49,442 nucleotides of DNA from an uncultured Bacteroidota bacterium (GTDB lineage: Bacteria > Bacteroidota > Bacteroidia > 2-12-FULL-35-15), in contig CAIXIP010000272.1 in assembly GCA_903919535.1 (NCBI GenBank), positions 1-49,442 of the forward strand, written 5' to 3'. The notes beneath the pieces are model-generated. The model was not told the origin of the DNA, did no database searches, and saw nothing but the letters and a program-made list of their open reading frames with translations. A program made the position numbers and the translations under genes. Below are positions 14,501-42,523 of the stretch, piece by piece. Numbering within the stretch: position 1 is the stretch's first letter; every line of letters begins with the position of its first letter.

Positions 14501-16339
14501 TTATTTCTTTTTTAATAGTTCAATAAATCCTGTTGTACTGTAATCTTTAGTTGTTTGTGATACGGCTTTTAGAATAAAATAATAGGTTCCATCGCTTAAT
14601 TCAACCCCGGCAGTTGTTCTGCCATCCCATTTTACATTTGCTGATTCTGTTTCAAAAACTTTAACTCCCCAGCGATTGAATATTTCTAATTTGTATTCTT
14701 TTAAACCAGAATTATTGATAAAAAAGAAATCATTTGTTCCATCTCCATCTGGAGTAAACACGTTTGGAATAACCACGTATTCAATTAAGCTAACATCAAA
14801 TGTTTGACAAATAGTATCAGCACAACCATTTGAATTTTGTGTATATAAACATACGTTTTCAATGCCATTATTATTGTAAACATGAGTAGGGTTTTGCATA
14901 GTTGAAGTAGATCCATCACCAAAATTCCATAGCCAATCAGTTGCACCGCCTGTTGATTGATCGTTAAAATTATAAGAAAAACCAGATGTTGATGTTGTGT
15001 CGAAAGCTGCAACTGGCGGAGCAGAAACAGTTACTGTGCATGAAGCCGGGCTTGAAGCGCAACCTAATGCACTTGAGGTAGTAACACTTACAGGACCTGA
15101 AGTTGTTCCCCAGTCAATTGTTACAGAGTTTGTTCCTTGTCCTGAAGCAATTGTTGTTCCAGCAGGAGATGTCCATGTGTAGGTCGATCCTGAACCTGTA
15201 GCAGAGAATGTGTTTCCTGTAGTGTTTTGACAAACTGCAGCACATGCTAAGACTGGCATTGTCGGTTTTTGACGAGATAAAATATAAGGTGAGTTAGAAA
15301 AATCTGCCCAGTTAACTTTTAAAACATCATTAAATGGGGTAGCGGATGTAGCGGTTGCAGTTCCCATATTATTCCAAAGTGCTGCTGTTGGAGTATTCCA
15401 TTGTGCTAAACCGTCCCAACCTCCATCAGCCAAATTATCATAAAAAATATCAATGCTTGCATTATCTGTTCCTGCACTACGATTGATCTGGTGATAAAAC
15501 AGTGGGTTTACAGTACAAATGTTTGTATCAATTGAAGCTGTGTTAAAGCCATCAGTTGTGGCAAGGTTATTTCCTAAACGAGCAGTATAAGTATTTGCGG
15601 CAGCAGATACAGGTGTAAGTTTTGCCGGACGATAACGGGTTGTTCCAACACTTGAACCAGTTGGATAAAGATAAATGGATGCCGTATTGGTTACTCTTGA
15701 TAAGCTTCCGCCAACAGAACTACTCACAAATCCTTCACTTCCAACAGTTGTTGTATTTGTTACACAGCTAGTTGAAGGATTCAGAACAAAAATTGTATTT
15801 GTAAGGGTTTCTAGTTCTCGGTCGTTAATTGTCAATGTTCCGATAGCAGAAATATTAGTATTTACAAGTTGTAATGTTTTTTTACGATTAGCAGCAACAC
15901 CTGTTCCTGAAAGAATCAGGTTATTGAATGTTGTTACAGTAGCATTTGTACTTGTGATATATTCTTGAAGATTTCCATTGAAATTAACTGTGCTGTTTCC
16001 AGAAGTAAAAGTGGCATCATTTGTCCAATCCTGTTCTATCAAGTATGTTCCATTACCTTGTAAGGTGGAGCCATTGGTTAAAAATACACTTCCCGGGGTG
16101 CCACTGTTAGAAATGGTCATTGTGCCATTGTTTTCAAAAATAGGAGTAGTTCCTGCTGCCCCGTCATTCTGAAAACCACCATTTACCTTAACGATAGCTG
16201 TAGAACCAGTATAAACGAGAGCGCCATTGTTGAATAGAATGGTTTGTGCAAAAGATATATTGGTAATGCTTCCCAACAATGTAAAAAGCAGGAATGATCT
16301 TTTGAATACCATTCCTGAGAATATTGTAATGTTTTTCAT
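14501..16339 (-). CDS. PKD-domain protein with gliding-motility-associated (T9SS type B) C-terminal sorting domain
   Basis: 'WNFGDGSTSTMQNPTHVY' PKD; C-terminus 'VFTPDGDGTNDFF...FNRWGVKVFE...WDG...DGTYYFILKA'. Preferred start at internal ATG 16339; ORF extends to 16381. Confidence 0.85.
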   Translation of the reverse strand: MKNITIFSGMVFKRSFLLFTLLGSITNISFAQTILFNNGALVYTGSTAIVKVNGGFQNDGAAGTTPIFENNGTMTISNSGTPGSVFLTNGSTLQGNGTYLIEQDWTNDATFTSGNSTVNFNGNLQEYITSTNATVTTFNNLILSGTGVAANRKKTLQLVNTNISAIGTLTINDRELETLTNTIFVLNPSTSCVTNTTTVGSEGFVSSSVGGSLSRVTNTASIYLYPTGSSVGTTRYRPAKLTPVSAAANTYTARLGNNLATTDGFNTASIDTNICTVNPLFYHQINRSAGTDNASIDIFYDNLADGGWDGLAQWNTPTAALWNNMGTATATSATPFNDVLKVNWADFSNSPYILSRQKPTMPVLACAAVCQNTTGNTFSATGSGSTYTWTSPAGTTIASGQGTNSVTIDWGTTSGPVSVTTSSALGCASSPASCTVTVSAPPVAAFDTTSTSGFSYNFNDQSTGGATDWLWNFGDGSTSTMQNPTHVYNNNGIENVCLYTQNSNGCADTICQTFDVSLIEYVVIPNVFTPDGDGTNDFFFINNSGLKEYKLEIFNRWGVKVFETESANVKWDGRTTAGVELSDGTYYFILKAVSQTTKDYSTTGFIELLKKK

Positions 16340-16408
16340 TGGCTCAATACTTATTTTCTTCAAACAGAATGTAATAAACAAATCTATTTAAATTTTCCTT
16401 GAAATCAA

Positions 16409-32945: not shown

Positions 32946-35900
32946 TTGAAAAAAATATTTTTACTCCTAATAGGTTTTTTTACCCTTACTGTTTTAAATT
33001 TACCTGCGGCAAATCGCTACTGGGTAGCTGGTACAGGTAATTGGACCGATCTTTCTCATTGGGCCTCCATAAGCGGAGGAGTTGGGGGGGCATCTATTCC
33101 AACATCAAACGATGATGTTTTTTTTGATCAGCATTCTTTTTCGGCTGATATGCAAGCCGTTATTATTAATTCCCCTGTGTTTTGTCATAACCTGAATTGG
33201 AGCGCAATTGATCGCCAGGTTGCTTTTTCCTCTCTACCATCAAGTACTATTTCTCTTTCTGGATCATATATTTCATCTCCTTTACTAATAAATGCTTTTA
33301 AAGGTCAAACAAAATTTGCTTCCAACTTGCCAGGAAATATAATTGAAACAGCAGGAAGAGAGATCATCGGTAATTGGATATTTGATGGTACAGGTGCTTG
33401 GACTTTTATGGATGATCTTATTACAGAAAGTCAGGTTTCTGTTTCACTTATAAAAGGGAACTTAAATACAAATGGAAAAAAAGTTGTTTGTGGTTCTTTT
33501 ATTGGAAGCTCAACTAGCCAGCGTAGTTTAAATTTATCTAATTCTGAGATAGTAATTAAAAACAATTGGGATTTTAACATTACTACAAATCTCAATTTTA
33601 ATTCAGGTTCATCAATACTTATTTTCGAAAAGCCAATTGATAATACTCATTTTAAAAGTGGTAACTTAACTTACAACTCCGTTACAAATAAAGCCCCAGC
33701 TACTTGTGTTTATCCACAGTTTACAATTCATTTGACAGAAACAGATGTTACATGTAATGGGTTAAGTGATGGAACAGCTACAGTTACTGTAACTCCAGGG
33801 ACTTCATCAGGTCCATTCCAATATTTATGGTTCACAGGCGGTTTTACCACAGCCACAGCCACAGGTTATGGGCCATCTAATTATACCGTAAGAGTAACAG
33901 ATTCTATTACAGGTGTTTGGCATATTTGTTCAATTTCAATTGCTGAGCCTTCTAAATTATTCGTTTTTGAAAATACAGTAACACCTCCAATGTGTTTTGG
34001 CTTGAGTAATGGAAGTGCTTCTGTTGATGGAGCTCAAGGTGTTCCACCGTACAATTTTTTATGGAATACAACGCCAATAGCACAAACTAGTAATGGGGTA
34101 TTAAGTAGCACAGCAACTTCATTGGCAGCAGGAACATATACGGTTACGATTACTGATACTCATGGGTGTAAAGACAGCACCCAAATTGTTGTAACTCAAC
34201 CTCAGTTGCTTGTTGCCCCTGGCTCCTCAACAAATATTTCATGTAATAATGCTTGTGATGGAACAGCTACTGTAGTTGCTGCCGGTGGTACTACCAATTA
34301 TACATATGTTTGGACGTCAACTCCTGCAACTGTTCAGCCAGCTACAGCAAATATTTCAAACCTTTGTCCGGGTACTTATACTTGTACTGTTACAGATGCT
34401 CATGCTTGTGTGGCTTCTTATAATACAACTATTACTCAACCTAACGTATTGACACTTGCTACAACGCAAATAAATGTTAGTTGTGGTGGATTGTGCGATG
34501 CTTCTGCAACAGCCACTATTACTGGAGGGACCGCTCCATACACTTATGCATGGTCATGTGGTGGGACCTCAACAACTGCAAGTTTAACAAATACAGCGAA
34601 CGGATTATGTGCCGGACCTTGCACAATTACAGTTACAGATGCTCATGGATGTACTATAAATAAATCAATAATAGTTACACAGCCGCCAGTATTAATTGCA
34701 ACAGCCACTGGAACAAACATTTCTTGTTTTAATTCTTGTGACGGAACAGCTACTTCTACTGTAACAGGAGGGACCTCAACATATTCTTATGTGTGGTCTT
34801 CTGGTCAATCAACTCCAAATACTGCTTCACTTACAAATACAATTAATGCGTTATGCGCTATTTCGTATACCGTTACTGTTACTGACTTAAATGGTTGTAC
34901 GGATACTGGTGTTGTTGCTCTTACCCAGCCAACTGTTTTGGACGTTACCGCATCAAAAACAAATGTGATATGTTTTGGTGCTTGTAATGGAACTGCAACA
35001 GCAAGCCCAACAGGTGGAACAGCGCCTTATACTTATTTCTGGAAAACAGTGCCTGTTGCACAGCAACCATTACAAACTGTTTCTAACTTATGTCCTGGTA
35101 CATATACTGTAATTGTTACAGATGCTCATTTATGTAAAGATTCAACTACAGTTATTATTACCCAACCAACAGATATTACTACCATTACTACCGGGACAAG
35201 TGTGACTTGTTTTAATGCTTGCGATGGAACTGCTATTGGCACACCATCTGGAGGCACACCAACATATACATATTCATGGACAGGGCCAGCCATCGGAGCT
35301 CCTGCAGGCAATACACAACAGATAACAAATTTATGTAACGGAACTTACACTTTAGTTGTTACTGATTTTGCTGGTTGTAAAGACACAACAACGGTTGCTC
35401 TGACACAGCCTAACCCATTCACTGTAACAATTACAAATACACCTTTACTTTGTAACGGACATTGTAATTCAGTTGCTACAACAACAGTTTTCGGTGGAAC
35501 ACCAACATATTCATATTCTTGGACCTCTTCACTTGGCCCAAATCCTCCTGCTACATCTACTATAAGCTCTTTATGCGCAGGGACTTACACTGTTACTGTA
35601 ACCGACTTTAATTTGTGTAAAGCTAAAGATACTGTTGTAATCATTGAACCGGCATTACTTGTTGTTGATTCAACTGTTGTAAATGCGACTTGCTTTAATA
35701 CAAATAGCGGCTCGGCTTGTGGTGTTGTAAGTGGTGGAACACCTGGGTATACATATTCATGGGCTCCTGGTCCACAAATAACACAATGTATTACTAATCA
35801 AACTGCAGGAACCTATACTTTAACCGTTACCGATCTAAATGGTTGTAAGGATACATCAAATATTACTATTACCGAACCTAATCTGATGTTGGCCAATCCT

Positions 35901-38900
35901 GTTGTAATTAGTCCAGTATTGTGTAATACATTAGTTCCAACATGTGATGGTTTGGCATATTCTTCACCAACTGGTGGTACTCCTCCATTCACTTATTCTT
36001 GGAATACTGCGCCTCTGCAGCTAAATGATACAGCTTCTAATTTATGTATTGGTACTTGGAGTGTAACAGTAACTGACACTAATGGATGTGTTTCTACACA
36101 GTCTATTGTTATTACTCAACCAACACCTTTAAGTGCAAATATTTCAAATACAACTTCCAGTTGTAACGTATGTAATGGTACAGCTACTGTTACCCCTTCC
36201 GGTGGAACCGGTCCTTACACATATTCATGGTTGCCTGCACCAGGAGGTTTGTCTGGGCAAACAGCAACAGGATTATGTTCGGGTGTTTTATATACTGTTA
36301 CAATAACAGATTTGAATGGGTGCACTGCCACTCGAACTGTTTCTATTTCTCAAACAGTTATCATAAGTATTACAACAACTAATACCGTCCTCAGTTGTTT
36401 TGGTTCATGCGATGGAGTTGCAACTGCAAATGCTTCTGGTGGTTCAGGGGTGTATGATTATTTCTGGGGACCAGGTACTCCATCAGGACAAGGCACTCCT
36501 ACTATTACAAATCTTTGTGCCGGAACTTATTGGGTAACTGCTACTGATACAACCGGATGTTTTAATACCGATACTATTGTTTTTTCAAATCCTGCATTGT
36601 TAGTTGCATCAGCAACAAGTATTAATGAAACTTGTTTTGGTTTATGTAATGCTACTGCAACAGGAAGCTATGTTGGTGGAACCGGACCTATTAACTATTT
36701 ATGGTCCGATGGCTCATCGCAAACAACTGCTGTTGCAACAAATTTATGTATCGGAACATATACATTAACTGTGACAGATTCTATGGCATGTTCAGATACT
36801 GCACAAGTTATTATTACCCAACCAACAGCAATACTTGATAATTATTCAAAAATTGATGCAACCTGTTTGATAAGTAATGGAAGCATTACAGTTGCTCCAA
36901 CAGGGGGCTCAGGCGTAGGATATACATACGTTTGGACCGGATCAGCTCCAATAACTGGTGGTGGAACATCTGTAACAAATCTTGCAGCAGGTACTTACAC
37001 ACTTGTAATTACTGATGGTGCAGGTTGTAGTAATACATTCAATTATTTTATAAATAATACGAATGCTCCTTCATTAGTAATTTCGAGTACTCCTATAAGC
37101 TGTTTTGGTGCATGTAATGGTACCGCAACGGTTGTAGCTTCTGGTGGTGCAGGAAGTTATGTATATAATTGGACTCCCGGAAATCCAATTGGTAATGGAA
37201 CAGCGGCTGTCACATCATTATGTTCCGCAACATACACTGTTAATGTTACAGATGCACTTGGATGTATTGAATTTGACACAATAAGTGTACTCGATCCTGC
37301 ATTAATTTCACCTAATCCTACTATTGTTGACGAAAGTTGTGGTGGATCATGTAATGGAAGTATCACATTGAATCCAACTGGTGGCAATGGTGGTTATACT
37401 TATGCTTGGACCAACGGATTGGGAGCTGCAATGCCAGCAACCTCAAGTCAATCGAATTTATGTGCAACACTTAGTCCTTATACAGTAACAGTAACAGATA
37501 CGAAAGGTTGTGACTCTGTTCTTGTAATAAATATTATTTCGCCACCTACATTAACTGCAACCATTGCATTCACAAATGTGAATTGTTTTAATGCTTGTGA
37601 TGGTACAGCTACTGTTACACCTTCAGGTGGAACGCCTCCGTATTCTCATAGTTGGTCGCATGGTGCGATATATATAACACCTGGCGTGGTGAATTTATGT
37701 CCGGGAACTTATACAGATACAGTAACAGATTTTAAGGGATGTACAGTTTTTGTTACAGCCACTATTACTGAACCAACTGCATTAACAGCTTCTTCGTCAC
37801 AAGTTAATGTATCATGTTATAATTTATGTGATGGAACGGTTTCAATTACAGCATCTGGTGGAACATTACCATATAGCTATTCCTGGAATCCGATTGTAAC
37901 AACAAATGTCGCAGGAGATAATGCAAATAGTTTATGTGCAGGGACATACAATCTTACTGTTACTGATGGCAATGGTTGTCAGTTGCCGATACCTGCAATT
38001 GTGATTTCAGAACCTACACAAATAAACGTAAATGTTACATCTGTAGATCCAACTTGCAATTCTTCTTGTAATGGAACAGCAACATCTACTCCTTCAGGTG
38101 GTTCAGGAGCCGGCTACACTTATCTTTGGAATACTTTACCTGTTGGACAGATTACGCAAACAGCAACTACACTTTGTGCTGCAACGTATAATGTAATAGT
38201 TACTGATGGTGCAGGTTGTAGTAATAATCAAAATGTTACTTTAACAGATCCTCCTGTCTTAAGTGCTAATGTGTCGGCTACACCAGCTATTTGTAATAAT
38301 TCCTGTAATGGTTCTGTGATAGCCAATCCTGTTGGGGGAACCCCAGGGTATACTTATTTATGGACTCCAGGTTTGCAAACTACGCAGTCGGTTATAAACG
38401 AATGTCCGAAAACATATACAGTAGTTGTTACAGATTCAAAACTTTGTACGGATACGCAAACAGTTGTTGTTGCCAACCCATTACCTATAAACGCATTATT
38501 TAGCACAACACCTGCTACATGCGGTTTTAATGATGGAACTTTAACTGTAACTCCAATTACTGGTACCCCGGGTTATGCTTATGTGTGGTCACCTTCACCT
38601 GGAGCTGGCAATGGAACGGCTAATGGTACTCTAATGTTCGCAGGGATATATTCTATTACAGTTACTGATACTAATAGTTGTGATTCAACTTTTGTTATTG
38701 GATTAAATAATGCGGGTGGACCAACAGGTGAAATTGTTTCAACCACTGATTTAACATGTAATTCTGTTTGTAGTGGAATTGGTTCTGTAGATGTTGTGAT
38801 TGGAGGCACCCCACCATTCACTTTCTTGTGGAACAATGCTCCTATTAATACAGCCAATGATACTGCAACAAATTTATGTGCCGGAAATTATTTGGTACAA

Positions 38901-41561
38901 GTTACCGATTCAAATAGTTGTATTCATTTTAGTCCTATTACAATTAATGAACCTTTGCCAATTGTTCCCAATGCGGTAATAACTGATGCAGCGTGCAGTA
39001 CTGTTTGTAATGGTGCAATTACAGTAACTCCTACAGGTGGAACAGGTGCAGTTTACAATTATTCATGGGCTCCGGGTAATCCTGCAGGGCAAGGCACTGC
39101 GACAATTACATCTCTTTGTCCGGGAACGTATACTTTAACAATTTCGGATGTAAATCTCTGTACTCAAGTAGATTCATTTGTTGTTGGTCAAAGTGCTCCA
39201 CTCAACGTAATAATTACATCTACCAATAGTACTTGTTCTTCAAATTGCAATGGGTCGTCTTATTTGATTATTTCTTCAGGCACATCTCCATATGCGATTC
39301 AATGGAATGATCCACTAGGACAAGTAAACGATACTGCCACCGCATTGTGTGCCGGAACATACACAGCTGTGATATTGGATGCCTTAGGTTGCAGTACTTC
39401 TGTGATCGATACTATTACAAGTGCAACACCGATAGTTGCAAATGCCTTAATTACAAATGCAACTTGTGGAGCATGTGACGGAGAGGCCGTTTTATCACCA
39501 ACAGGTGGAACAGCACCTTATACTTATGTTTGGAGTAATGTTCCTACAACATTTGCAGTAGATAGTAATTTATGTGCAGGATTATATACAGTAGATATTA
39601 CAGATAGCTTGGGTTGTGTCGTAAATGTTCCAATTCCAGTAAGTAATTCAAACGGACCAACGAGTGTAGCAATAACATCAACAAATGCAAGTTGCTTTGC
39701 TGTATGTGATGGCGCAGTAACAGGTTTGGTTCCAACTGGTGGAACACCTCCTTATACTTATTTGTGGATACAAAGTGGAGCAACAACCACAACATTAAAT
39801 AATTTGTGTGCTGGTGTTTATTTCGTTCAGGTAAAAGATTCTTTAGGTTGTTCACTAATAGATTCTGTAACTATAACAGAGCCAAGTCAAATATTAGCGA
39901 ACCAACAAATAACTGCTGCAACCTGTGGTGTTTGTAACGGTGGTATTGTAATTGTTCCAAGCGGAGGAATAGGAGCATACACTGCAGTGTGGAGCGTTTT
40001 CCCTGTGCCACTAGTTTGGGATACATTAACAAATTTATGTGCAGGTGTTTATTCCGTTCAATTAACTGATGCAAATGGTTGTGGTCAAAATGTTGTTATT
40101 CCAGTAAATAATTTTAATGGCCCATCACTTACTACTAGTATAACAGATGTAACTTGTAATGGAATGTGTGATGGAACGGCAACTGTTACTGCAACAGGAG
40201 GATTGGCTCCATATACTTATTTATGGAACGATGCTTTACCACAAATAACACCTACTGCCGGTTCACTCTGTCCTGGAACTTATTTTGTACAAGTAACAGG
40301 TGCAGATTTGTGCGTTTCGATATCATCAGCCATAATCACAGAGCCTACATCTATTGGATTTAGTGCTGCAAATATTAATGATCCATTATGTAATGCAGAT
40401 ACTAACGGTTCGATAAGTATTTTCCCTTCAGGAGGTGTTCTTTCCTATACATACTCTTGGACGTTAAGTTCGAGTATAACAAATACAGCGACAAATCTTG
40501 GTGCAAATACTTATATCACCACGGTAACAGATGCGAATGGTTGCATTGCGACACAAACTAATACATTAACAGATCCTCCAATATTAACAATCAGTAATGT
40601 TGCCACTAGTCCAAGTTGTAACACAATTTCTGATGGAGCGATTGATGTTACTGTTGGTGGCGGCACTCCAACTTATGGTTATCAATGGACTGGTGCTTCT
40701 GTTGCTGTTACCGAGGACCTTACAAATGTGTTAATGGGTGCATATACGATTATAGTTACTGATGCAAATGGATGTACTATTAAAGATACAGTAACATTAA
40801 CTCCAACTACAACAGTGATAGCGAATGCCGGGAATGATACCTCTTTCTGTATGTTAAATTCAGTGAGTTTGAATGCAACAGGAAGTACAAACGGAACAAA
40901 TTACAATTGGTATATGATACCTTTAAATACAAATGTTGGAACAGGTAGTATTATTTCGGTTACACCATCTGATACAACAACTTATTATGTAGTTGTTGAT
41001 AACGGAGCAGGTTGTGCTGATAACGATACTATTAACGTACTTTCTTATCCATTGCCTGTTGCAAATGCTGGTGCTGATATTACAATATTAACTGGTGCGA
41101 GTACAACTATTGGTGGTAGTCCTACAGGTCCTACAGGATCAACTTATTTGTGGATTCCTTTGCCTGGTTTGGATAATAGCACAATCGCTAATCCCTTGGC
41201 AAGTCCGTCATCAACAACTACTTATTCTGTTGTCGTTACATCTGCTCAAGGTTGTGTTTCAAGTGATTCAGTAGTAGTTTCAATTTTACCAAATATTTCA
41301 TTTGGTAATGGAATTTCTCCGAATGGTGATGGCGTAAATGACGAATGGGAAATTGATTTCATAGAATTATTTCCTGAAAATACAGTTGAAGTTTATAATC
41401 GTTGGGGTGAATTATTATTCCAATCAAAAGGATATAAAGAAAAATGGGATGGAAAATACAAAGGACAACCATTGCCGGTTGGGACGTATTATTACATTAT
41501 TAATTTGAATGATCCATTATTCCCTGATGCATACACAGGGCCAATTACTATAATGCGATAA
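32946..41561 (+). CDS. Giant SprB-repeat surface protein with T9SS type B (gliding-motility-associated) C-terminal domain
   Basis: 2871 aa; signal peptide; N-domain 'NRYWVAGTGNWTDLSHWASISGG'; about 30 repeats 'TxxSCFxxCDGTATxxxxGGTPPYTYxW...NLCAGTYTVTVTDxxGC...ITQP'; C-terminus 'ISPNGDGVNDEW...VYNRWGELLF...WDGKYKGQPLPVGTYYYIINL'. Confidence 0.92.
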   Translation: MKKIFLLLIGFFTLTVLNLPAANRYWVAGTGNWTDLSHWASISGGVGGASIPTSNDDVFFDQHSFSADMQAVIINSPVFCHNLNWSAIDRQVAFSSLPSSTISLSGSYISSPLLINAFKGQTKFASNLPGNIIETAGREIIGNWIFDGTGAWTFMDDLITESQVSVSLIKGNLNTNGKKVVCGSFIGSSTSQRSLNLSNSEIVIKNNWDFNITTNLNFNSGSSILIFEKPIDNTHFKSGNLTYNSVTNKAPATCVYPQFTIHLTETDVTCNGLSDGTATVTVTPGTSSGPFQYLWFTGGFTTATATGYGPSNYTVRVTDSITGVWHICSISIAEPSKLFVFENTVTPPMCFGLSNGSASVDGAQGVPPYNFLWNTTPIAQTSNGVLSSTATSLAAGTYTVTITDTHGCKDSTQIVVTQPQLLVAPGSSTNISCNNACDGTATVVAAGGTTNYTYVWTSTPATVQPATANISNLCPGTYTCTVTDAHACVASYNTTITQPNVLTLATTQINVSCGGLCDASATATITGGTAPYTYAWSCGGTSTTASLTNTANGLCAGPCTITVTDAHGCTINKSIIVTQPPVLIATATGTNISCFNSCDGTATSTVTGGTSTYSYVWSSGQSTPNTASLTNTINALCAISYTVTVTDLNGCTDTGVVALTQPTVLDVTASKTNVICFGACNGTATASPTGGTAPYTYFWKTVPVAQQPLQTVSNLCPGTYTVIVTDAHLCKDSTTVIITQPTDITTITTGTSVTCFNACDGTAIGTPSGGTPTYTYSWTGPAIGAPAGNTQQITNLCNGTYTLVVTDFAGCKDTTTVALTQPNPFTVTITNTPLLCNGHCNSVATTTVFGGTPTYSYSWTSSLGPNPPATSTISSLCAGTYTVTVTDFNLCKAKDTVVIIEPALLVVDSTVVNATCFNTNSGSACGVVSGGTPGYTYSWAPGPQITQCITNQTAGTYTLTVTDLNGCKDTSNITITEPNLMLANPVVISPVLCNTLVPTCDGLAYSSPTGGTPPFTYSWNTAPLQLNDTASNLCIGTWSVTVTDTNGCVSTQSIVITQPTPLSANISNTTSSCNVCNGTATVTPSGGTGPYTYSWLPAPGGLSGQTATGLCSGVLYTVTITDLNGCTATRTVSISQTVIISITTTNTVLSCFGSCDGVATANASGGSGVYDYFWGPGTPSGQGTPTITNLCAGTYWVTATDTTGCFNTDTIVFSNPALLVASATSINETCFGLCNATATGSYVGGTGPINYLWSDGSSQTTAVATNLCIGTYTLTVTDSMACSDTAQVIITQPTAILDNYSKIDATCLISNGSITVAPTGGSGVGYTYVWTGSAPITGGGTSVTNLAAGTYTLVITDGAGCSNTFNYFINNTNAPSLVISSTPISCFGACNGTATVVASGGAGSYVYNWTPGNPIGNGTAAVTSLCSATYTVNVTDALGCIEFDTISVLDPALISPNPTIVDESCGGSCNGSITLNPTGGNGGYTYAWTNGLGAAMPATSSQSNLCATLSPYTVTVTDTKGCDSVLVINIISPPTLTATIAFTNVNCFNACDGTATVTPSGGTPPYSHSWSHGAIYITPGVVNLCPGTYTDTVTDFKGCTVFVTATITEPTALTASSSQVNVSCYNLCDGTVSITASGGTLPYSYSWNPIVTTNVAGDNANSLCAGTYNLTVTDGNGCQLPIPAIVISEPTQINVNVTSVDPTCNSSCNGTATSTPSGGSGAGYTYLWNTLPVGQITQTATTLCAATYNVIVTDGAGCSNNQNVTLTDPPVLSANVSATPAICNNSCNGSVIANPVGGTPGYTYLWTPGLQTTQSVINECPKTYTVVVTDSKLCTDTQTVVVANPLPINALFSTTPATCGFNDGTLTVTPITGTPGYAYVWSPSPGAGNGTANGTLMFAGIYSITVTDTNSCDSTFVIGLNNAGGPTGEIVSTTDLTCNSVCSGIGSVDVVIGGTPPFTFLWNNAPINTANDTATNLCAGNYLVQVTDSNSCIHFSPITINEPLPIVPNAVITDAACSTVCNGAITVTPTGGTGAVYNYSWAPGNPAGQGTATITSLCPGTYTLTISDVNLCTQVDSFVVGQSAPLNVIITSTNSTCSSNCNGSSYLIISSGTSPYAIQWNDPLGQVNDTATALCAGTYTAVILDALGCSTSVIDTITSATPIVANALITNATCGACDGEAVLSPTGGTAPYTYVWSNVPTTFAVDSNLCAGLYTVDITDSLGCVVNVPIPVSNSNGPTSVAITSTNASCFAVCDGAVTGLVPTGGTPPYTYLWIQSGATTTTLNNLCAGVYFVQVKDSLGCSLIDSVTITEPSQILANQQITAATCGVCNGGIVIVPSGGIGAYTAVWSVFPVPLVWDTLTNLCAGVYSVQLTDANGCGQNVVIPVNNFNGPSLTTSITDVTCNGMCDGTATVTATGGLAPYTYLWNDALPQITPTAGSLCPGTYFVQVTGADLCVSISSAIITEPTSIGFSAANINDPLCNADTNGSISIFPSGGVLSYTYSWTLSSSITNTATNLGANTYITTVTDANGCIATQTNTLTDPPILTISNVATSPSCNTISDGAIDVTVGGGTPTYGYQWTGASVAVTEDLTNVLMGAYTIIVTDANGCTIKDTVTLTPTTTVIANAGNDTSFCMLNSVSLNATGSTNGTNYNWYMIPLNTNVGTGSIISVTPSDTTTYYVVVDNGAGCADNDTINVLSYPLPVANAGADITILTGASTTIGGSPTGPTGSTYLWIPLPGLDNSTIANPLASPSSTTTYSVVVTSAQGCVSSDSVVVSILPNISFGNGISPNGDGVNDEWEIDFIELFPENTVEVYNRWGELLFQSKGYKEKWDGKYKGQPLPVGTYYYIINLNDPLFPDAYTGPITIMR
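33729..40814 (+). repeat. Coding tandem array of about 30 diverged SprB repeats (about 79 aa / 237 nt period)
   Basis: Hand alignment of the translation from HLTETDVTC to VTLTPTTT. Confidence 0.88.
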
Positions 41562-41596: not shown

Positions 41597-42523
41597 GTGA
41601 AAAGATTTTTAATCCTAATGTTGATTGCTTTTAGTTTTACGAAACTTGATGCACAGCAATTGCCCCAATATAGCAATTACATGATTAATGATTTTGTAAT
41701 GAATCCGGCTATTGCAGGTAATAATTCCTATTTTGAAGGAAAGTCGAATAATCGTTATCAGTGGGTTGGACTTACGGATGCGCCACGCACATACATATTA
41801 AGTGTTAATGGGCCAACCAAAGCATACAACATGGGCTTAGGCGGTATTTTGTTTACAGACATTGTTGGGCCTACACGAAGGACAGGTTTTTATTTATCAT
41901 ATGCATACCATTTGAAAGTTGCTGAAAAAATAAAAGTGTCGATGGGAATTTCAGGTGGTATTTTACAATTTATGGTAGATGGTTCAAAAATTAATCTTCA
42001 TACTCCAAATGATATTGCTATCAGTAGTGGTATTCAATCAGTGATAATTCCTGATTTTGGTGCCGGTGTATTTGCATATTCAACTGATCATAAATGGTAT
42101 TTTGGTGTAAGTGTTCCTCAAGTTATGCAAAACCAGATCAAGTTTTTTGATTACAAAACATCATCATTGAATAAACTTGCTACCCATGTTTATTCAACTG
42201 CGGGATATAAATTTAATGTTGGTGATAATTTTAAAATTGAACCATCTTTTTGTCTTAAATATGTAAAACCGGCTCCTTTGCAATTTGATTTAGGGATACG
42301 TGCAATATACAAAGACAAGATATGGATCGGTTCTGCATTTCGTTATTTAGACGCAGTTTCTGCAATGGTAGGTTATACTATGCAAGAAAACATTACGTTC
42401 GCTTATTCATATGACTTTACAACTACGGCTATAAAAAAGTATAGCACAGGAACTCATGAACTTATGATTGGAATAAAATTTCATAAGCAAGCTGAAAAAG
42501 AATCAAGTGTAAAAGTGAAATAA
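41597..42523 (+). CDS. PorP/SprF-family type IX secretion system membrane protein
   Basis: 'AQQLPQYSNYMINDFVMNPAIAGNNSYFEGKSNNRYQWVGLTDAPRTYILSVNGP'. GTG start, immediately downstream of the SprB-repeat gene. Confidence 0.9.
   Translation: MKRFLILMLIAFSFTKLDAQQLPQYSNYMINDFVMNPAIAGNNSYFEGKSNNRYQWVGLTDAPRTYILSVNGPTKAYNMGLGGILFTDIVGPTRRTGFYLSYAYHLKVAEKIKVSMGISGGILQFMVDGSKINLHTPNDIAISSGIQSVIIPDFGAGVFAYSTDHKWYFGVSVPQVMQNQIKFFDYKTSSLNKLATHVYSTAGYKFNVGDNFKIEPSFCLKYVKPAPLQFDLGIRAIYKDKIWIGSAFRYLDAVSAMVGYTMQENITFAYSYDFTTTAIKKYSTGTHELMIGIKFHKQAEKESSVKVK

Follow-up and report, generated by a model that had tools for sequence, protein, structure and literature searches.

Predicted disulfides between neighbouring modules of a giant SprB-repeat adhesin from an uncultured Bacteroidota bacterium

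The closest described relatives of the protein analysed here are F. johnsoniae SprB and the SprB-repeat (PF13573)/CHU_C (PF13585) proteins, which share its repeat family, its C-terminal domain and the adjacent PorP/SprF gene. Work on gliding published in 2025 emphasised how strongly the adhesin is loaded mechanically and showed a disulfide at the adhesin's membrane anchor; it also described a C-x-C motif in the periplasmic tail of F. johnsoniae SprF (PMC12635249). Reinforced adhesin stalks are also known from Ca2+-clamped extender domains (PMC5380327) and ester-bond crosslinked domains (PMC12679949), and in Siglecs an interdomain disulfide joins two neighbouring Ig domains, V-set and C2 (PMC10122656). 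The SprB-repeat family is already known; no description of the disulfide pattern of SprB/CHU_C proteins was found in the literature searched, mostly open-access papers, and none of the array-wide inter-module disulfide predicted below.

The adhesin gene and its neighbours

The window (the whole stretch of DNA that was analysed, 49,442 nucleotides) is one contig, CAIXIP010000272.1, of a 3.87 Mb genome and carries the features collected in Table 1. The product of the giant gene starts with an N-terminal domain, followed by the 30 SprB modules, a further two Ig-like domains and, at the C-terminal end, CHU_C. It matches PF13573 over the curated cut-off with 585 bits in 23 stretches, the count of 30 modules being that of the alignment, and CHU_C with 87.9 bits against a cut-off of 27; the gene that follows matches the PorP/SprF family with 259 bits. 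The tandem PF13573 repeats, the CHU_C end and the adjacent PorP/SprF gene place the protein among the SprB-repeat T9SS adhesins. In contrast to F. johnsoniae SprF, the product of the partner gene was found to have no C-x-C motif, its tail (...KFHKQAEKESSVKVK) being free of cysteine; with such a partner, any coupling of the adhesin to the gliding track may differ from that in F. johnsoniae.

The source genome has 81 SprB-repeat matches, and its 19 PorP/SprF-family genes and 63 CHU_C matches make up a large T9SS surface-protein set. A second CHU_C protein lies in the window itself (14501-16381, minus strand). With the module cysteines numbered Cys1 to Cys4 (alignment columns 20, 24, 59 and 73), its PKD-like last domain has a Cys4-like and no Cys1-like residue.

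Table 1. Coordinates in the window of the adhesin gene, its parts and its partner gene
Feature	Position	Strand	Remarks
Giant T9SS surface protein gene	32946..41561	+	2,871 aa, TTG start, 117 Cys
N-terminal region, residues 23-250, Cys80 and Cys182	33012..33695	+	predicted mutual pair, by exclusion
SprB array, 30 modules, residues 251-2615	33696..40790	+	Cys1 and Cys4 in all, Cys2 and Cys3 in 23
Cap cysteine Cys254, A-strand start of repeat 1	33705..33707	+	predicted partner: Cys4 of repeat 1 (Cys328), on the basis of 28 analogous caps at internal joints
Cys480, repeat 3, F-strand column 65	34383..34385	+	sole unpaired cysteine of the proposed map
Extra pair Cys538/Cys559, repeat 4, columns 45 and 63	34557..34622	+	from the alignment
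Relocated inner pair Cys925/Cys948, repeat 9, columns 29 and 54	35718..35789	+	from the alignment
Ig_7-type domain	40791..41027	+	Cys2635, Cys1-like; Cys2690, Cys4-like, predicted partner of Cys1 of repeat 30 (Cys2558)
Last Ig-like domain	41028..41270	+	only Cys4-like Cys2770, without Cys1; predicted chain end via Cys2635
CHU_C domain	41301..41510	+	zero cysteines
PorP/SprF-family outer-membrane partner gene	41597..42523	+	directly 3' of the adhesin gene; without C-x-C tail

Inner cysteines and the pair within the module

The 30 units were cut around an invariant Trp and aligned by MAFFT. Cys1 and Cys4 are each present in 30/30 repeats, while Cys2 and Cys3 occur together in 23/30 and are missing together in 7/30 (repeats 1, 2, 9, 14, 21, 29 and 30), with no repeat having just one of the two. 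The computed realignment reproduces exactly the hand-made table in which the first-pass annotation had recorded this pattern. Under independence a perfect match of Cys2 with Cys3 would arise by chance in 1 in C(30,7) cases, about 1 in 2 million, a figure that is overstated because the repeats are related. When the 30 repeats are arranged on a clustering tree, the pair is gained or lost about seven times, which argues that the pattern is not one inherited event.

Three features had been missed by hand. Repeat 9 has the relocated pair Cys925/Cys948 in place of its lost inner pair, repeat 4 the extra pair Cys538/Cys559, and repeat 3 the lone extra Cys480. A lone third cysteine in strand F, at column 65 ("YTCT[IV]TD"), is seen in about 120 modules family-wide, often in many successive modules (e.g. 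loci L067 and L082); it has no evident partner and is perhaps a buried thiol in place of Val.

The family set comprises 2,592 modules in 215 reading frames at 181 loci, from the source genome, its relatives and 80 loci of named Bacteroidota. Modules were found with a hand-written consensus module, and both the module calls and the cysteine windows are our own definitions. Columns 24 and 59 hold both cysteines in 234 modules, neither in 2,245 and only one in 9, an almost perfect covariation. Of the single-cysteine modules read by eye, several are alignment slips; others stand last in their array or precede a module that bears its own cap (a cysteine at the start of strand A), and in these Cys1 would be free for bonding to Cys2.

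Columns 29 and 54, the positions of the repeat 9 pair, both hold cysteine in 11 modules and only one of them does in 1. The relocated pair lies on the same antiparallel register as Cys2/Cys3 (24 + 59 = 29 + 54 = 83), and columns that face each other across the antiparallel strands B and E are expected to have equal sums. Within the module, 24/59 and 29/54 are the first and second strongest DCA couplings or nearly so (Z 35 and 14). The Cys2-Cys3 pairing is thus well supported by the covariation in 2,592 modules and by the alternative pair on the same register, which together make an optional Cys2-Cys3 disulfide within the module very probable; it would span the start of strand B to the end of strand E.

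Outer cysteines and the joint between modules

For the outer cysteines, the earlier proposal was a Cys1-Cys4 bond that, like the optional Cys2-Cys3 bond, stays inside each module. Such an arrangement agrees with the covariation of Cys2 and Cys3 and with the presence of both Cys1 and Cys4 in every window module, but is contradicted by the family set, where the presence of the two outer cysteines in the same module is unrelated. Among 211 modules with a loss, Cys1 alone is missing in 123, Cys4 alone in 86 and both in 2 (Fisher p = 0.32). Cys1 of module n instead tracks Cys4 of module n+1, which is present in 2,211/2,211 junctions with Cys1(n) in the family set (p = 2e-63, with modules of one protein not independent and exceptions judged by eye). 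At junctions without Cys1(n), Cys4(n+1) is also gone in 39 and present in 37; in 28 of these 37, module n+1 has a new cysteine where its strand A begins (16 in the discovery set and 12 in the new set), and about 7 more, inspected by eye, mostly resemble a displaced Cys1 or an adjacent Ig_7 domain. About 130 residues separate Cys1(n) from Cys4(n+1), too many for both to fall inside a single 78-residue domain under any choice of borders.

The junction rule was found on the first 153 reading frames and rerun with the same model and definitions on 62 frames from new genomes, the Cys4 window having been widened for FG loops with insertions before this replication set was taken. Cys4(n+1) was again present in every junction with Cys1(n) (347/347). 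The 34 junctions without Cys1(n) fall into 17 with neither cap nor Cys4, 12 with cap and Cys4, 3 with Cys4 only and 2 with the cap only, the last being exceptions (L250 and L262). Joints that have lost both cysteines occur in 13 different reading frames of the discovery set and in 4 different frames of the new set. The reverse pairing, Cys4(n)-Cys1(n+1), was rejected, as its association is weak (odds ratio 4) and fits short stapled blocks.

The ends of the arrays also speak against bonds confined to the module, in that first modules tend to drop Cys4 only and last modules Cys1 only. Cys4 is missing from 31 of the 129 first modules scored, all of which have Cys1, and from 22/1,755 internal modules; Cys1 is missing from 28 of the 124 last modules scored, all of which have Cys4, and from 33/1,755 internal modules. 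First modules that keep Cys4 have a cap cysteine in 160/211 cases, versus 46/2,292 internal modules, and the remaining ones mostly have a cysteine in an upstream domain. At the C-terminal end, the last Ig domain before CHU_C has neither Cys1 nor a linker cysteine in 25/28 proteins and has both in 3/28, as counted with windows set after viewing the data. The fair test is a fresh set with fixed windows, in which 20/25 proteins have Cys1 only together with a linker cysteine. These include two one-module arrays (L178 and L191) with Cys1 and a linker cysteine and without Cys4, as expected if staples span the joints; the five misfits are one domain that is not Ig, two window-edge cases by eye and two real exceptions (L188 and L194). 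The last modules of L107 and L069 retain Cys1 without an obvious downstream partner. Some modules of L106, L129, L132 and L152 have a cap cysteine together with a cysteine about four residues past Cys4, which may form an A-G strand bond.

Coevolution and the predicted fold point in the same direction. In mean-field DCA on adjacent module pairs (1,797 unique), the top-ranked coupling between modules links column 20 of module n to column 73 of module n+1 (Z 15.1); the same two columns within a module score about 0-1 (1.1 and -0.2). AF2 models gave a confident beta-sandwich (pLDDT 88.0 and 89.3) and Foldseek matched the single-module model to Ig-like domains with TM 0.5-0.7, by which the SprB module is predicted to be an Ig-like beta-sandwich. 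The AB and FG loops of the Ig topology are located at opposite ends of the domain, a geometry that suits a bond crossing the joint rather than one confined to a single module. On all these counts, we regard outer bonds inside each module as extremely improbable.

Covariation alone cannot separate a neighbour in the same chain from a staggered partner in another, and Cys1-Cys4 bonds could in principle link different protein chains into bundled fibres. However, the coupling is one-directional, n with n+1 only, and is accompanied by couplings from the AB loop of module n to the A-strand start of module n+1 (18-3, 21-8 and 17-4, with Z 10.9, 6.2 and 5.6), none of them cysteine columns, a contact expected at the joint itself. 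These couplings persist in junctions restricted to those with both cysteines and are gone for n,n+2 and n,n+3. Cap cysteines, moreover, substitute locally, and bonding between chains seems to us scarcely credible. The cysteines might also touch across the joint but be reduced or switchable, giving a redox-responsive joint; thiol exchange does occur in this machinery, where the F. johnsoniae SprF-GldK attachment uses an exchangeable disulfide (PMC12635249). The extracellular location, the lack of a CxxC-type exchange motif at most joints and the paired loss of the cysteines, which fits a structural bond, make such a switch very unlikely.

We favour an Ig-like chain in which disulfides connect neighbours, the AB-loop Cys1 of module n bonding the FG-loop Cys4 of module n+1, with the optional intramodule Cys2-Cys3 in most modules of this protein, and put the probability of this arrangement, as read from sequence, at about 0.9. 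The bonds would form by oxidation in the periplasm prior to export. In place of two staples inside each module there would be a single staple at every joint, with the optional Cys2-Cys3 bond as an addition within the module.

Staple map, fibre mechanics and known reinforced stalks

For the window protein we infer a map running from Cys254-Cys328 over Cys1(n)-Cys4(n+1), through Cys2558-Cys2690, to Cys2635-Cys2770. The rest of the map consists of 23 inner pairs, Cys925-Cys948, Cys538-Cys559 and Cys80-Cys182, with Cys480 alone. It pairs 116/117 cysteines; within-module pairing would strand Cys254, Cys480 and Cys2770. No joint of the window array is without its staple cysteines, so the direct evidence in the window itself consists only of Cys254 and the Cys1-less last Ig domain.

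The stretch from Cys4(n) to Cys1(n+1) is mostly 25-26 residues long (mean 25.8) and would, in a normal Ig fold, comprise strand G and then the next strand A. At 0.34-0.36 nm per residue it would measure about 9 nm, for a span of two modules at about 4 nm apiece, so that the path from backbone to S-S to backbone would have almost no slack while the fibre is folded. This covalent path, G-A-S-S-G-A, would run as two interleaved, nearly taut lines along almost the entire fibre. By our own arithmetic on assumed lengths, 30 unfolded stapled modules would come to the order of 140 nm, versus about 850 nm if unbonded. Since unfolding would free little length, load would rest on the covalent bonds, and a stapled fibre is expected to extend very little when pulled. 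Mechanical reinforcement of the adhesin, already put forward in the first-pass annotation, survives as a prediction in stronger form.

Joints without a staple would act as built-in hinges. The staple is missing at every third joint in L233 and L243, and every second joint in L264 is capped by a cap cysteine; the regularity of the staple-less joints suggests placed hinges. By this sequence rule each joint could be read as staple, hinge or cap. We consider it a little better than an even bet that Bacteroidota SprB-type arrays in general are covalently laced fibres, with two nearly slack-free lines of G-A strand pairs, and that evolution adjusts their stiffness through the loss or capping of particular staples, a change that in some proteins recurs at each second or third joint. 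On this result, covalent reinforcement would extend to the joints of the stalk itself, and for a great many T9SS proteins the pairing is predicted residue by residue.

The best Foldseek match of the three-module model is the Aureispira grappling-hook protein GhpA (PDB 9flp, 9flw and others). The sequence similarity to the adhesin modules is weak; one aligned Ig-like stretch of GhpA has Cys1-like (TTICEGTS) and Cys4-like (AQGCNS) positions, sequence comparison revealed little of the other GhpA domains, and the deposited structures may already show an inter-module bond. Siglecs have a single such bond, at a single joint of a receptor, whereas in the long SprB array almost all joints are proposed to have one. 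The extender and ester-bond stalks meet the same problem as the SprB array, a mechanically stable bacterial adhesin stalk, by different chemistry: ester crosslinks have been described within adhesin proteins and calcium clamps are non-covalent, whereas the SprB staples would be covalent and lie across the joints.
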